A stretch of 64,000 bases of DNA. It comes from Polynucleobacter meluiroseus. Its GTDB lineage: Bacteria > Pseudomonadota > Gammaproteobacteria > Burkholderiales > Burkholderiaceae. Positions 52,247 to 58,580 of this stretch are shown piece after piece. Positions within the stretch are counted from its first letter, which is position 1. Every line of letters begins with the position of its first letter. The position numbers and the translations under genes are program-made. Where the stretch lies: contig CAMCVH010000002.1 in the NCBI GenBank assembly GCA_945881875.1, positions 62,001-126,000 of the forward strand, given 5' to 3'. Below the pieces are notes generated by a model, which saw only the letters and a program-made list of their open reading frames with translations, did not search any database and was not told the DNA's origin.

Positions 52247-52447
52247 ATGAGCGAAAAAAACAATCATAAAGAGTCACGTAGGAAGTTTTTTGTTACAACT
52301 GGTTTGGCAGCTGGTGCTGTTGCAGCTGTGTCACAAACTTCTATCGGCACAGCAATTGCTGAGCAAGCTGCATCATTGGTTGAGGATTCTAAAGGCTATA
52401 AAGTCTCCGACCACGTTCTTAAATATTACAAAACAACGCTTGTTTAA
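52247..52447 (+). CDS. small Tat-signal protein of the formate dehydrogenase cluster
   Basis: 66 residues with a twin-arginine signal (SRRKFFVTTGLAAGAVAAVS) and a short remainder ending DHVLKYYKTTLV. It matches the tiny 'formate dehydrogenase region Tat target' (FdhX-like) that precedes fdhA in many proteobacteria. AGGAG precedes the ATG. It carries no cofactor motif. It may assist export or act as a small periplasmic subunit; the function is unproven. The terminator-like palindrome downstream overlaps its last codons. Confidence 0.85.
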   Translation: MSEKNNHKESRRKFFVTTGLAAGAVAAVSQTSIGTAIAEQAASLVEDSKGYKVSDHVLKYYKTTLV

Positions 52448-52493: not shown

Positions 52494-55475
52494 ATGAGTC
52501 TGATTCGTAAATCATCGCAACAAGTAACAGCTGTTAAGAACCATTCAACCCAAATGATGGGTAGTTTGGCTCGCAGCCTCCAATCTGCAATTCCTATGAT
52601 GGATCGCAGAACATTCCTCAAGCGCTCTGGCGTAGGTGTTGGTGTAGGTCTAGCCGCATCGCAGCTAACTCTTGTACAAAAAGCCAAAGCATCTAACGTT
52701 GCTAAAGGTGATGGCAAGGGAACGATTGAAGTTAAGAGAACTATTTGTTCACACTGTTCAGTTGGCTGTGCCATTGATGCAGTTGTTGAAAACGGGGTTT
52801 GGACTCGTCAAGAACCAGTTTTTGATTCACCGATCAACCTAGGCGCTCACTGCGCTAAAGGCGCCGCTCTTCGTGAACACGGTCATGGCGAATTCCGTTT
52901 GAAATATCCAATGAAATTAGTCAACGGTAAATACGAAAAAATCAGCTGGGATCAAGCTTTAGAAGAGATCACGGCCAAAATGAAGGGGTTGAAGAAGCAG
53001 CACGGTCCAGACTCTCTTTTCTTCGTGGGATCTTCAAAGTACAACAATGAACAAGCTTATTTACTTCGTAAATTTGTTTCGTTCTTTGGTACTAACAACA
53101 CAGATCACCAAGCTCGTATCTGTCACTCAACAACTGTAGCCGGTGTTGCAAACACCTGGGGTTACGGCGCGATGACAAACAGCTACAACGATATGCAAAA
53201 CTCAAAAGCAGCTATTTATATTGGTTCAAACGCTGCTGAAGCCCACCCAGTTTCAATGTTGCACATGTTGCATGCTAAAGAAGCTGGTTGCAAAATGATT
53301 GTTGTTGATCCACGTTACACACGTACTGCAGCTAAATCTGATCAGTACGTTCGTATTCGTTCAGGTTCAGACATTCCTTTCTTGTTTGGTGTGCTTCATC
53401 ACATCTTCAAAAATGGTTGGGAAGATAAGAAGTACATCAACGACCGTGTCTACGGTATGGAAGATGTTAAGAAAGATGTTCTTGAGAAATGGACGCCAGC
53501 CAAAGTTGAAGAAGCTTGTGGTGTTCCAGAAGCTGAGGTTTATAAAGTTGCCAAAACGCTTAATGAAAACCGTCCAGGAACAATCGTTTGGTGTATGGGT
53601 CAAACTCAACACACAATCGGTAACGCGATGGTTCGTGCCTCATGTATTTTGCAGTTAGCACTCGGTAACGTTGGTAAGACAGGTGGCGGAACAAACATTT
53701 TCCGCGGTCACTGTAATGTTCAAGGCGCAACTGACGTTGGTCCTAATCCAGATTCATTGCCTGGCTACTACGGTTTAGCGGCTGGTTCATGGAAACACTT
53801 CGCAGATGCTTGGGGTGTTGACTATGAGTGGATCAAAGCACAGTTTGCTCCAAACATGATGGAGAAATCAGGTACAACAGTGTCACGTTGGGTAGATGCG
53901 GTGCTTGAGAAGAATGAATTGATTGACCAAGACAGTAACGTTAAGGGTGTTTTCTTTTGGGGTCATGCACCGAACTCACAAACTCGTGGCACGGATATGA
54001 AGAAGGCCATGGATAAATTGGATCTATTAGTTGTAGTTGATCCATATCCAACAGCAACAGCTGCTATGGCGGCGATGCAGGTTGAGGGTGCTCAAGTTAA
54101 TAAAGATCGTGCTGTTTACTTATTACCTTCAACTACACAGTTTGAGACAAGCGGTTCAGTCACCGCTTCAAACCGTTCTATCCAGTGGCGTGAGAAAGTT
54201 ATCAACCCACTATGGGAGTCAGTACCTGACCACGTGATCATGCAAGCGTTGGCCGATAAGCTTGGATTTGGTAAAGAATTGACCAAAAACTACAAGATGT
54301 TGACAACTAAGTTTGCAGGTAAAGACTGGAAAGAGCCTGAGCAAGAATCTGGTCTACGTGAAATCAACCGTTCAGTATGGACAATTGGTTACACAGGCCA
54401 CTCACCAGAGCGTTTAAAAGCTCACATGCGCATGATGCACGTGTTTGACGTCAAAACATTAAGATCAAAAGGCGGTAAAGATCCGGTAACTGGATACGAT
54501 ACAACTGGCGACTATTTCGGATTGCCATGGCCTTGTTACGGTACTCCAGAAATGAAGCACCCAGGTAGCCCGAACCTCTATGACACCAGCAAGCACGTTA
54601 TGGACGGCGGCGGTAACTTCCGTGCCAACTTCGGTATTGAAAAAGATGGTAAGAGCTTACTTGCTGAGAATGGTTCGTTCTCTAAGGGCGCTGACATCAA
54701 GACTGGTTACCCAGAGTTTGATCACGTTTTAGTTAAGAAATTGGGTTGGTGGGATGAATTAACAGATGCCGAGAAGAAATTGGCAGAAGGTAAAAACTGG
54801 AAGACCGACTCTTCAGGTGGCATGATCCGTGTAATTATGAAAAATCACGGTTGTCATCCATTTGGTAACGCTAAAGCGCGTGCAGTTGTTTGGAACTTCC
54901 CTGATCCAGTTCCTCAACACCGTGAACCGTTGTACGGCACACGTCCTGACTTGGTCGCTAAGTACCCGACGCATGATGATAAAAAAGCTTTCTGGCGTTT
55001 ACCAACTCTCTACAAGTCACTTCAGCAGAAGAACATTGAAGACAAGTTGTATGAGAAGTTCCCAATCATTCTCACCTCAGGTCGTTTGGTTGAGTACGAG
55101 GGTGGTGGTGAAGAGACTCGTTCAAACCCATGGTTAGCTGAATTACAACAAGATAACTTTGTTGAGATCAATCCAGCTGCGGCTAATAAGCGTGGTATCC
55201 GTAACGGTGAGTATGTTTGGGTTAAATCTCCAACAGGCGCGAAGATTAAGGTGAAGGCCTTGGTTACAGAGCGTGTTGCAGCTGACACAGCATTTATTCC
55301 ATTCCACTTCTCAGGCTGGTGGCAGGGTAAAGACATTCTTGATGCATATCCAAAAGGTGCGGCGCCGATTGTTCGTGGTGAGGCTGTGAATACAGCTACA
55401 ACCTACGGCTACGACAGCGTAACCAATATGCAAGAGAGTAAAACAACAATTTGTCAAATCGAAAGATTCGCTTAA
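52494..55475 (+). CDS. fdhA: formate dehydrogenase catalytic subunit (Cys-type, Tat-exported)
   Basis: Oxidises formate to CO2 at a bis-MGD Mo or W site. The 993 residues begin with an unusually long leader; the Tat motif DRRTFLKRSG is at residues 37-46. A 4Fe-4S cluster is bound by Cys85, 88, 92 and 120. Catalytic DHQARICHSTT has Cys210-His211 where E. coli FdhN has selenocysteine, so no selenium is needed. NHGCHPFGNAKAR and the late ILTSGRLVEYEGG belong to the MGD-binding domain. An internal Met36 is an alternative start, but GAGGG sits before the first ATG. It forms an operon with fdhB and fdhC. Confidence 0.95.
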   Translation: MSLIRKSSQQVTAVKNHSTQMMGSLARSLQSAIPMMDRRTFLKRSGVGVGVGLAASQLTLVQKAKASNVAKGDGKGTIEVKRTICSHCSVGCAIDAVVENGVWTRQEPVFDSPINLGAHCAKGAALREHGHGEFRLKYPMKLVNGKYEKISWDQALEEITAKMKGLKKQHGPDSLFFVGSSKYNNEQAYLLRKFVSFFGTNNTDHQARICHSTTVAGVANTWGYGAMTNSYNDMQNSKAAIYIGSNAAEAHPVSMLHMLHAKEAGCKMIVVDPRYTRTAAKSDQYVRIRSGSDIPFLFGVLHHIFKNGWEDKKYINDRVYGMEDVKKDVLEKWTPAKVEEACGVPEAEVYKVAKTLNENRPGTIVWCMGQTQHTIGNAMVRASCILQLALGNVGKTGGGTNIFRGHCNVQGATDVGPNPDSLPGYYGLAAGSWKHFADAWGVDYEWIKAQFAPNMMEKSGTTVSRWVDAVLEKNELIDQDSNVKGVFFWGHAPNSQTRGTDMKKAMDKLDLLVVVDPYPTATAAMAAMQVEGAQVNKDRAVYLLPSTTQFETSGSVTASNRSIQWREKVINPLWESVPDHVIMQALADKLGFGKELTKNYKMLTTKFAGKDWKEPEQESGLREINRSVWTIGYTGHSPERLKAHMRMMHVFDVKTLRSKGGKDPVTGYDTTGDYFGLPWPCYGTPEMKHPGSPNLYDTSKHVMDGGGNFRANFGIEKDGKSLLAENGSFSKGADIKTGYPEFDHVLVKKLGWWDELTDAEKKLAEGKNWKTDSSGGMIRVIMKNHGCHPFGNAKARAVVWNFPDPVPQHREPLYGTRPDLVAKYPTHDDKKAFWRLPTLYKSLQQKNIEDKLYEKFPIILTSGRLVEYEGGGEETRSNPWLAELQQDNFVEINPAAANKRGIRNGEYVWVKSPTGAKIKVKALVTERVAADTAFIPFHFSGWWQGKDILDAYPKGAAPIVRGEAVNTATTYGYDSVTNMQESKTTICQIERFA

Positions 55476-55501: not shown

Positions 55502-56128
55502 ATGGCACGAATGAAATTTATCTGCGATTCAGAGCGCTGCATTGAATGTAACGGCTGTGTAACCGCTTGTAAGAATGAGCACGAAGTACCTTGGGGTGTT
55601 AATCGTCGCCGAGTTGTGACAATTAATGACGGCGTCATTGGTGCTGAGAAGTCAATCTCTGTTGCATGTATGCATTGTTCAGATGCACCATGCATGGCAG
55701 TTTGCCCAGTGGATTGCTTCTATAGAACTGATGAGGGTGTTGTTCTTCATGACAAAGACATTTGTATCGGTTGTGGCTATTGCTCATATGCATGCCCATT
55801 CGGTGCACCTCAGTTCCCAAGCTCTGGAACATTTGGTTTACGCGGCAAAATGGACAAGTGCACATTCTGTGCTGGCGGTCCTGAGAAAAACGGAACATTG
55901 GCTGAGTTTGAAAAGTATGGCCGTAACCGTTTATCTGAAGGTAAGCTACCAGCTTGCGCTGAGATGTGTTCAACCAAAGCTTTGATTGGTGGTGATGGCG
56001 ATGTTGTTGCGGATATCTTCCGTAACCGTGTTGTTAAGCGTCAATCAAATGGTAAAGCTGCTGGTGCCAACGTGTTTGGTTGGGGTACTGCTTACGGTAA
56101 GCCACAAGCTCCAGGAAAGAAATCATGA
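55502..56128 (+). CDS. fdhB: formate dehydrogenase iron-sulfur subunit
   Basis: 208-residue ferredoxin-type subunit that passes electrons from FdhA to the cytochrome b. Four cysteine groups are visible: CIECNGCVTACKNEHE (about 17-32), CMHCSDAPCMAVCP (about 58-71), CIGCGYCSYACP (about 88-99), and CTFC with CAEMC (about 120-160). It has no signal peptide, so it probably crosses the membrane with FdhA through Tat. It lacks the C-terminal membrane helix of E. coli FdnH. AGGAG precedes its ATG. Confidence 0.94.
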   Translation: MARMKFICDSERCIECNGCVTACKNEHEVPWGVNRRRVVTINDGVIGAEKSISVACMHCSDAPCMAVCPVDCFYRTDEGVVLHDKDICIGCGYCSYACPFGAPQFPSSGTFGLRGKMDKCTFCAGGPEKNGTLAEFEKYGRNRLSEGKLPACAEMCSTKALIGGDGDVVADIFRNRVVKRQSNGKAAGANVFGWGTAYGKPQAPGKKS

Positions 56129-56355
56129 TCAAAAAAATACTAACACTTAGTGTTGTTGCTTCTGCTTTCACATTAAGCGCTTGCTCTGAGGTACCACAAG
56201 GTGTTGTGGGTGGCAAAAAACCTGACGAAAAAGCCTATGTTGCAGCTGACAATAAGTTCGTGGTGACTGGCTGGAAATCAGGTGATCCTGTCACTTGGGA
56301 AAACCAGCTAAAGGTGCGTAGTCAAGGTCAAGACGACTACACCAAAGCTAAGTAA
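56125..56355 (+). CDS. small lipoprotein of the fdh operon, unknown function
   Basis: 76 residues. A signal ends in lipobox LSAC with the lipidated Cys at residue 20. The mature part of about 57 residues holds VPQGVVGGKKPDEKAY, VVTGWKSGDPVTWENQLKVR and a charged end. No known domain. Its ATG overlaps the fdhB stop by 4 bases and fdhC follows by 26, so it is firmly inside the enzyme operon. A structural or assembly role at the periplasmic membrane face is likely but inferred. Confidence 0.85.
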   Translation: MIKKILTLSVVASAFTLSACSEVPQGVVGGKKPDEKAYVAADNKFVVTGWKSGDPVTWENQLKVRSQGQDDYTKAK

Positions 56356-56381: not shown

Positions 56382-57407
56382 ATGAGAATTACAATAAAAA
56401 ACTTGCTTGCTTGCGTGGTCTTGTCTTTGTCAGCATCGTTTGCGATCGCTCAAGGTGCAGCTCCTCAAGTTGAATCAGTCAATATCCTTGAAGTAAGTAA
56501 AGACGTTCAAGCGCAACGCGAAGCTGGGGAAAGTAAGCCAGGCAGCAATCAACCTATTTGGAAGAATGCTAATTCTGATGTAGCTCACAGTGTTAATTTC
56601 CCGAATAAGGAAATGGGTGTTTTGATTCAAAAATCAGGGCAGCAGTGGCGCTTGATTCGTAACGGTGTTATCACTGTATTTGGCGGTTGGTTGTTAATGA
56701 TCGCTGCTGGTGCAATTTTGGCAGTGTTCGTTCTCAAAGGAACTATCAAGCTTAAAGAGCCGATTTCAGGCAAGTTGATGCAGCGATTTAGCAGTGTTGA
56801 GAGATTTTCACACTGGTTGATGGCTATCAGCTTCGTTGCTTTGGCAATTACTGGTATTTTCATTCTCTGGGGCAAGTTCTTTATGTTGCCGATCATTGGT
56901 GGTACTGCTTACGGTGCCCTTTTATTGGTAATGAAGAACATCCACAACTTTGCTGGCCCGCTGTTTACGGCGTCCACGGTTCTTTTCTTTGTTATTTATG
57001 TTAAAGATAACCTTCCAACAAAAGACGATTTTGTTTGGTTAATGTCTTTCGGTGGCATGCTATCAGGTAAGCACATCCCTTCACATCGTTTTAACGCTGG
57101 TGAGAAGTTCTGGTTTTGGGGTGGTGTAACAGCTCTTGGTCTTTTAGTTTCTGCATCAGGTTGGATTTTAGACATGATCGTGCCAGGACTTGATTACTGG
57201 CGTGGAACTATGCAGTTGGCCCATATTGTTCACAGCGCCTCAGCTATCTTGATGACAGTCATGGCTATGGGTCACATTTATATCGGTTCGATTGGTATGC
57301 AAGGTGCTTACCAAGGTATGAGTACTGGTTATGTTGACGAATCATGGGGCAAAGAGCACCATGAACTTTGGTATGACGATGTCAAATCTGGAAAAATTCA
57401 GAAGTAA
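56382..57407 (+). CDS. fdhC: formate dehydrogenase cytochrome b subunit
   Basis: 341-residue membrane subunit that takes electrons from FdhB to quinone. A cleavable signal (MRITIKNLLACVVLSLSASF, ending near AIAQ) is followed by a periplasmic segment to about residue 95, then about five membrane helices. Likely haem-ligand His lie in SSVERFSHWLMAISF (about 140), MKNIHNFAGPLF (about 190) and the LAHIVHSASAILMTVMAMGHIYIG helix (about 282). It is longer at the N-terminus than E. coli FdnI. The signal sequence and soluble N-terminal part are features of the FdoI/gamma family in this cluster type. Confidence 0.92.
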   Translation: MRITIKNLLACVVLSLSASFAIAQGAAPQVESVNILEVSKDVQAQREAGESKPGSNQPIWKNANSDVAHSVNFPNKEMGVLIQKSGQQWRLIRNGVITVFGGWLLMIAAGAILAVFVLKGTIKLKEPISGKLMQRFSSVERFSHWLMAISFVALAITGIFILWGKFFMLPIIGGTAYGALLLVMKNIHNFAGPLFTASTVLFFVIYVKDNLPTKDDFVWLMSFGGMLSGKHIPSHRFNAGEKFWFWGGVTALGLLVSASGWILDMIVPGLDYWRGTMQLAHIVHSASAILMTVMAMGHIYIGSIGMQGAYQGMSTGYVDESWGKEHHELWYDDVKSGKIQK

Positions 57408-57423
57408 TTAAAGGATATAAATC

Positions 57424-57675
57424 ATGAAAAAAATAACATTAATATTGATGACTCTTTTATCAAGCGTTGCCTTTGCAAAGTTACCAGCACCAACACCAGA
57501 AGCAGCTGCCGCTGCTGATTTAGCGAAAGCTAGAACCGACCATGCTGGTAAGGTTGGTGGTTATCAACTTTGTTTATCTCAAAATGATGTAGCTGGAAAG
57601 TATAAGAAAGCTGGCGCTCCTGCTCCAGCCGCATGTACAAATCCTGGTCCTTTTGTAGCTCCTGCAGCTAAGTAA
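57424..57675 (+). CDS. small secreted protein after fdhC, unknown function
   Basis: 83 residues. A Sec signal (MKKITLILMTLLSSVAFA) leaves a mature protein of about 65 residues rich in Ala, Pro and Lys, with two Cys (in GYQLCLSQNDVAG and APAACTNPG) that could form a disulfide. AAAGGA precedes the ATG, 16 bases after fdhC, and a strong terminator follows. It closes the fdh structural operon. I do not recognise a family. Confidence 0.8.
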   Translation: MKKITLILMTLLSSVAFAKLPAPTPEAAAAADLAKARTDHAGKVGGYQLCLSQNDVAGKYKKAGAPAPAACTNPGPFVAPAAK

Positions 57676-57746: not shown

Positions 57747-58580
57747 TTGGTTAAACTCACTCAAGCCGTTGCTCCCCTAACTCACGAAGTTGAAGTGATT
57801 GATGAAAAGGGTCGCAAGAAAACCAGCCATATCCCCGGTGAGCGACCACTCACTATCTATCTTGATAAAAAAGAATTAGTGACCCTTATGACTATGGGGG
57901 GTGCACCTGAGGCTTTGGTTTTAGGCTACTTGCGCAATCAGCGATTGGTGCCATCTATCGAGATGATTGAAAGTATTCAGGTAGATTGGGAAACTGAATC
58001 TGTTGCTGTTAAAACAAATGGTAATACTGTCAATATTGAAGAAAAAACAAGTCGTCGTGTCGTCACGACTGGTTGTGGCCAAGGTACCGTCTTTGGTGGC
58101 CTGCTAGACGATATTGATAAGATCAGACTATCTGATACAGCAAAGATCGAACAGTCAGCTATTTATCAAATTGTTGACCATATCAGAACAAGAGACTCTA
58201 TCTATAAACAAGCTGGTTCGGTTCATGCCTGCGCTGTTTTTAAAAACTGCGGTGATCATGCTGAATTAATGCACTTTATAGAGGATGTAGGTCGTCATAA
58301 TGCTGTAGATTCAATTGCGGGATTAATGTGGTTGAATCAACAGGCCGGGGAAGATCTTATTTTTTATACAACGGGCCGACTCACATCTGAGATGGTTATC
58401 AAAGGTGCTCAGATGGGGATACCGTTTTTATTGTCACGTTCTGGTGTTACTGCTATGGGTTTAGATATGGCCAATCAAGTGAAGTTAACTTTATTAGGCC
58501 GTTGTAGTGGTGAACATTATTTAGTTTACAGCGGTGTTGATCGCATAATTCAAGGGTCTACAAATGTCCATACCGCGTGA
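57747..58580 (+). CDS. fdhD: formate dehydrogenase sulfurtransferase FdhD
   Basis: Passes sulfur from a cysteine desulfurase to the Mo cofactor of formate dehydrogenase. The 277 residues have the FdhD pattern: GERPLTIYLDKKELVTLMT, TTGCGQGTVFGG near residue 110, SVHACAVF, EDVGRHNAVDSIAG and YTTGRLTSEMVIKGAQMGIP. The start is TTG at 57747. Only Cys110 remains of the CxxC loop known from E. coli FdhD; the second position is Gly. It overlaps mobA by 17 bases. Confidence 0.93.
   Translation: MVKLTQAVAPLTHEVEVIDEKGRKKTSHIPGERPLTIYLDKKELVTLMTMGGAPEALVLGYLRNQRLVPSIEMIESIQVDWETESVAVKTNGNTVNIEEKTSRRVVTTGCGQGTVFGGLLDDIDKIRLSDTAKIEQSAIYQIVDHIRTRDSIYKQAGSVHACAVFKNCGDHAELMHFIEDVGRHNAVDSIAGLMWLNQQAGEDLIFYTTGRLTSEMVIKGAQMGIPFLLSRSGVTAMGLDMANQVKLTLLGRCSGEHYLVYSGVDRIIQGSTNVHTA

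Follow-up and report, generated by a model that had tools for sequence, protein, structure and literature searches.

What does a small lipoprotein do inside a formate dehydrogenase operon, where its gene lies between those of the beta and gamma subunits? The question is raised by a locus in Polynucleobacter meluiroseus (GenBank assembly GCA_945881875.1, contig CAMCVH010000002.1, positions 62,001 to 126,000 of the forward strand; this whole stretch of 64,000 nucleotides is referred to here as the window), for which a preliminary description had suggested a fourth subunit that anchors the periplasmic enzyme. Our analysis suggests, with a probability of roughly 0.6, that the protein is a dedicated envelope partner of the FDH3-type enzyme and most likely remains stably bound to it as an accessory subunit, a role in which it is probably so far undescribed.

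The operon and its lipoprotein gene

The gene neighborhood encodes, in order, DUF3305 and DUF3306 proteins, a polyferredoxin, a TorD-like chaperone, a small TIGR02811-like protein, FdhA, FdhB, the lipoprotein, FdhC and a secreted protein of 83 amino acids. FdhB (55502..56128, plus strand) is an FDH3 beta subunit, scoring 331.8 bits against NF038355 (FDH3_beta, cut-off 240), and FdhC (56382..57407, plus strand) is a cytochrome b gamma subunit, scoring 162.8 bits against TIGR01583 (cut-off 115.85); the placement of the lipoprotein gene between fdhB and fdhC in the preliminary description was thus upheld. The catalytic molybdopterin subunit FdhA (52494..55475, plus strand) contains Pfam molybdopterin domains and, despite scores under the NCBIfam alpha equivalog cut-offs (TIGR01591, 486.7 against 666.25 bits; TIGR01553, 358.9 against 814.2 bits), aligned with PDB chain 9vap_A over residues 36-991. 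Judged by sequence, the open reading frames at 57747 and 58564 are candidates for fdhD and mobA. Upstream of fdhA, a 66-residue protein (52247-52447, plus strand) reached 42 bits against TIGR02811 ("formate_TAT", formate dehydrogenase region TAT target; cut-off 48.45); it is a third small protein of this operon with no assigned role.

Among solved enzymes the closest is SoFdhAB of Shewanella oneidensis (PDB 9VAP), which a review on CO2 conversion (PMC13397495) describes as an oxygen-tolerant formate dehydrogenase of two subunits. The window's FdhA and FdhB aligned with 9vap_A and 9vap_B over almost their full length. The 9VAP matches covered these two subunits only; the FdhC search matched only 1kqf_C, which aligned with FdhC residues 130-339, and for the lipoprotein no PDB chain was found beyond weak matches (best E 0.092 and 0.077 with lipoprotein profiles A2 and A4, respectively, and no convincing relative). 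E. coli Fdh-N (FdnGHI, PDB 1KQF) likewise faces the periplasm and includes a cytochrome b subunit. Its beta subunit, FdnH, has a C-terminal membrane helix (PF09163), which makes a contact within Fdh-N, whereas PF09163, present in E. coli, had no match in this genome and a hydropathy scan of FdhB detected no membrane segment. The Fdh-N operon is not known to encode a lipoprotein. Membrane helices are predicted in FdhC, and from where the alignment starts there is one in addition to those of the E. coli relative. In the AlphaFold model of FdhC, a low-confidence, presumably flexible segment of ~60 residues follows the signal helix, and after it come an extra helix (84-119) and the confidently modelled cytochrome b core.

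The lipoprotein gene (56125..56355, plus strand, 76 codons) starts with an ATG at 56125 that is preceded by an AGGAAAG stretch, and its stop codon ends at 56355, 26 bases upstream of the fdhC start at 56382. Its start and the fdhB stop share the four bases ATGA (56125..56128, plus strand), suggesting translational coupling. Residues 1-19 (56125..56181, plus strand) form a signal peptide, with a hydrophobic segment at 5-23, that ends in the lipobox L17-S18-A19-C20; the codon of C20, the predicted lipidated N-terminal Cys, lies at 56182..56184 (plus strand) and leaves a mature part of 57 residues. The product therefore has the signal peptide, lipobox and Cys of a bacterial lipoprotein, lipidation being predicted from the sequence, and the earlier account of a 76-residue lipoprotein that overlaps fdhB by four bases proved accurate in each of these respects. 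Among 123 matches to the lipoprotein profile, two of which received no start under the rule used, the exact 4-base overlap with fdhB occurred in 95 of the 121 loci with an assigned start. This open reading frame is a real gene.

Database searches placed the protein in no described family. We found no Pfam match at E 1, and NCBIfam and PHROGs matches were sub-threshold; the best NCBIfam match was Slp (14.8 bits against a cut-off of 88.45) and the best of the weak PHROGs matches was phrog_2320 (unknown function; E 0.0032, residues 2-67). None of the known small lipoprotein families compared (Slp, EexN, LptM, YgdI/YgdR, Ag473 and others) was exceeded at its curated cut-off, and ten relatives of the lipoprotein likewise fell far under family cut-offs. 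A phage or defence origin was considered and set aside, PADLOC having returned no match for the window protein and PHROGs only the weak ones just given. The protein is annotated "hypothetical protein" in both Variovorax plasmids examined, and a search of the open-access PMC literature, largely at the level of article listings, turned up no account of a lipoprotein encoded among formate dehydrogenase genes; the formate dehydrogenase genes listed in PMC5023235 are annotated mostly as NAD-dependent. In one Variovorax paradoxus plasmid (CP063167.1; L170:4118-4369) the lipoprotein gene is tagged "CAE beta-lactamase, identity 100%" in the PLSDB resistance track. Its product has 83 amino acids and lacks S-x-x-K, and the CAE-1 enzyme has 302 amino acids (PMC9984417); the label looks like a false resistance call.

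Occurrence beside fdhB in other genomes

The preliminary description had pointed to the space between fdhB and fdhC in other genomes as the place to look for homologues, whose absence would have told against it; the outcome was the reverse. FDH3_beta exceeded its cut-off in 59 of 101 related genomes, the remaining ones having only matches below it, from other 4Fe-4S proteins. A plain protein search detected the lipoprotein in 58 of the 101; 57 of these matches lie 81-183 bases downstream of the FdhB profile match, and the 58th is on a contig that starts within the lipoprotein gene and continues into fdhC. In the two FDH3 genomes that gave no plain match (G070 and G086), reading of open reading frames and a profile search revealed a divergent copy in the slot, so that a homologue adjoins fdhB in all 59 FDH3-bearing relatives. 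The order fdhB, lipoprotein, fdhC was seen in 29 of 30 loci inspected among the relatives, the 30th being a cut contig.

Across 250 genomes of the order, FDH3_beta was over its cut-off in 52, and lipoprotein profile A4 gave 60 matches in 59 genomes. Fifty-two of these matches lie 63-147 bases downstream of the FdhB match, in genomes identical to the 52 with FDH3, a 52/52 agreement to be read with the reservation that some of these genomes contributed rows to A4 and that genomes of the same genus are not independent. The other eight matches are weak (E 1.6e-4 to 9.9e-4); seven stop before model position 53 and the eighth (G807) at 63. One genome has a second FDH3 beta copy (G741:C6:53337-53864), perhaps a pseudogene, which contains a single in-frame TAG and has no adjacent lipoprotein match.

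Among named genomes, the lipoprotein was found by profile in 79 of the best 80 of 595 confirmed loci from an FdhB scan. The contig of the 80th ends 104 bases past fdhB, and the opening of the same protein is present there. The titles of these best 80 loci are betaproteobacterial where a class or genus is given, a few being only Pseudomonadota or uncultured bacterium, and include Variovorax, Acidovorax, Ramlibacter, Rhodoferax, Polaromonas, Limnohabitans, Limnobacter, Herminiimonas, Caldimonas, Roseateles and Pigmentiphaga.

The position and co-occurrence expected of an FDH3 subunit were found in 59/59 relatives and 52/52 genomes of the order, and these sequence comparisons support a dedicated partner of FDH3. 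They also bear on the explanation that an unrelated lipoprotein gene rides in the operon by chance. In favour of such a passenger, weak matches to many families are usual for lipoprotein signal peptides, which are widespread; however, the set of genomes with FDH3 and the set with the adjacent lipoprotein are the same 52 of 250, the eight other matches there are weak and mostly cut short, and the slot is common to beta- and alphaproteobacteria (see below). A chance passenger is therefore disfavoured, and we regard it as highly improbable.

Beyond the order, FDH3_beta was over its cut-off in 41 of 299 genomes of a phylum sample, in which 30 of 44 listed FDH3 places were examined. Seven of the 30 loci have a lipoprotein in the slot, four of them from the order and three, divergent, from other classes; the other 23 have none. 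A profile of the three divergent proteins matched in 20 of 289 genomes from the class to which they belong (assumed to be Alphaproteobacteria), a share of all class genomes rather than of FDH3-bearing ones. All 20 matches are in the slot: 18 between fdhB and fdhC, one on a contig cut before fdhC and one on a contig cut before fdhB.

The alphaproteobacterial form is shorter (mature part of 42-45 residues; 18 sequences used), with a pattern like CREEEQ.R....KG.Y.G..D........L..RA..Q, to be compared with C.E......YKQGKYQGKPD......W......R...QNEY.R in a betaproteobacterial subgroup. Comparison of mature profiles gave a probability of 93% (E 3.5e-7, 21 columns) between the alphaproteobacterial form and this subgroup, whose 14 sequences were picked after their YKQGKYQGK-like motif had been noticed; the comparison with all betaproteobacterial sequences gave 10.5%, and that with only three alphaproteobacterial sequences 1.2%. 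Single scores of the 14 against the alphaproteobacterial profile overlap the shuffled range, as they run from 5.7 to 23.9 bits and the shuffled maxima in 5,000 were 14.0 and 13.3. Taken together, the two lipoproteins are likely homologous. One alphaproteobacterial locus (L166) has a longer lipoprotein open reading frame in which the C-terminal R-x-x-x-Q helix is seemingly repeated after a Gly/Pro/Ala-rich stretch.

A quick tree of FdhB plus FdhC was built from 73 rows (31 of the 32 chosen lipoprotein-bearing betaproteobacterial rows, 19 alphaproteobacterial rows with the lipoprotein and 23 rows without it). Only 3 changes of the "none" label were needed, against a shuffled mean of 19.7. The betaproteobacterial rows fall on one side of a branch with support 98, six lipoprotein-free rows form a separate group, and the other 17 lipoprotein-free rows fall into two groups within the alpha clade. 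The topology fits a gain or a loss of the lipoprotein alike. Because many FDH3 loci are without the gene, the lipoprotein is dispensable for the reaction itself. The idea that in some of these loci its helix is fused to FdhC (nine lipoprotein-free loci with a long FdhC N-terminus and a TLEDILARQ helix, families f85 and f55) was rejected, with hhalign giving a probability of 0.2%. By eye, a WGWxTAY-like motif (~56080-56128 in the window) ends most betaproteobacterial and alpha-clade FdhB sequences and is lacking in the six gamma-group rows.

The second small secreted protein (57424..57675, plus strand, 83 amino acids) is Ala/Pro/Lys-rich, without a Pfam match and with only a sub-threshold NCBIfam match. 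Its homologues lie downstream of fdhC in 102 of 111 betaproteobacterial loci whose sequence extends 350 bases or more past that gene, and also in one further locus (L014), and were found in none of 12 alphaproteobacterial lipoprotein-bearing loci and none of 10 loci without lipoprotein. This protein is possibly a further FDH3 component in betaproteobacteria.

Conserved residues, predicted shape and membrane location

The lipoprotein is under purifying selection. Values of dN/dS were 0.04-0.11 in 12 of 15 close pairs with a computable dS, several dS values being near saturation, and in a second group pN was lower than pS in 55 of 55 pairs. Neither R65 nor the anchor Cys is ever replaced in 118 distinct betaproteobacterial sequences, and W58 (99%), G53 (97%), D34 (95%), D54 (92%), Q69 (92%) and Y72 (91%) are highly conserved. 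By a rough rule, 107 of 120 betaproteobacterial members have no extra Cys and 13 have one. Since the mature part of these members has no His, Met or second Cys conserved in 60% or more, a role as a haem or Fe-S carrier is unlikely on sequence grounds.

The AlphaFold model of the lipoprotein (52 sequences; mean pLDDT 78, pTM 0.40) consists of a signal helix (2-18), an extended chain and helices at 55-66 and 71-74, with no compact domain. The first of these C-terminal helices (56287..56322, plus strand) carries the conserved W58 and R65. As modelled, the shape is that of a strap predicted to fold on a partner.

Asp at position +2 is the canonical signal for retention of lipoproteins in the inner membrane. 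It is known as the LolCDE avoidance signal (PMC5727369). At +2 the 120 betaproteobacterial members have Gly (67), Ser (33), Thr (10), Asn (4), Ala (2) or other residues (4), and Asp in none, so that by the classical rule sorting to the outer membrane is possible. This opens the explanation that the lipoprotein sits in the outer membrane and from there contacts the periplasmic enzyme, tethering or positioning it in the envelope; the Gly, Ser or Thr found in 110 of 120 members and the extended chain predicted for the mature part would both suit it. However, a bound partner could hold the lipoprotein in the inner membrane, the classical +2 rule may not be the rule in Burkholderiales, and a mature chain of 57 residues is short for spanning the periplasm. 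We consider this location improbable, and give equally little credence to its consequence, namely that in betaproteobacteria and some alphaproteobacteria the C-terminal helix would grip the enzyme and so physically link the outer membrane to an inner-membrane quinone-reducing complex.

An accessory subunit or an assembly factor

The suggestion of a fourth subunit anchoring the enzyme thus divides in two. A dedicated FDH3 partner, and with it a further subunit, is plausible from the co-occurrence described above, but anchoring found no support: FdhC has predicted membrane helices and would span the membrane itself, 23 of the 30 phylum-sample loci do without the lipoprotein, and Asp is absent at +2. 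Anchoring by the lipoprotein is accordingly not required.

The explanation to be weighed most carefully is a periplasmic assembly or maturation factor, which would meet FdhAB after Tat export, aid its docking on FdhC or the maturation of FdhC, and then leave. Conservation and co-occurrence with FDH3, including the conserved position, fit such a factor equally well, and the operon has other accessory genes, e.g., those for the TorD-like chaperone and the small TIGR02811-like protein. On the other hand, the gene lies among the structural subunit genes, mostly with the exact overlap with fdhB, and a lipid anchor suits a resident protein somewhat better; neither point is decisive, and we view an assembly factor as a serious but rather unlikely alternative. 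It is for these reasons (the position among structural genes, the 4-base overlap in 95 of 121 loci and the lipid anchor) that we prefer a stably bound accessory subunit.

As an accessory subunit, the lipoprotein would act after export and lipidation, when its C-terminal helix (W58, R65, Q69, Y72) would fold onto the periplasmic face of FdhABC, docking perhaps on the flexible N-terminal segment of FdhC. Lipid and linker could then serve as a strap that keeps FdhAB, the soluble arm, aligned with the cytochrome b subunit, replacing part of the contact made by the FdnH C-terminal membrane helix, which is absent from FdhB here, while coupling to fdhB translation would maintain stoichiometry. A docking site in FdhC is weakly hinted at by G79, just before the extra helix 84-119, and N94, at its start. 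These are the only ones of all FdhB and FdhC columns that track the lipoprotein at the thresholds used, i.e., that are conserved in lipoprotein-bearing alpha- and betaproteobacterial rows without being conserved in the alpha clade's 17 rows that have no lipoprotein. Two such columns are few, label and phylogeny are confounded, and one column tracks in the opposite direction.

A lipid-anchored subunit of a respiratory complex has a precedent in CyoA of cytochrome bo3. CyoA is likewise a lipid-anchored, periplasm-side part of an inner-membrane redox complex, and the likeness is one of analogy only, with no sequence relation shown. If a large branch of FDH3 enzymes carries an unrecognised lipoprotein subunit, then it would have to be included when the beta- and alphaproteobacterial FDH3 enzymes are expressed or studied structurally. 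The finding would also bear on how formate dehydrogenases whose beta subunit has no membrane helix are held to their membrane subunit.
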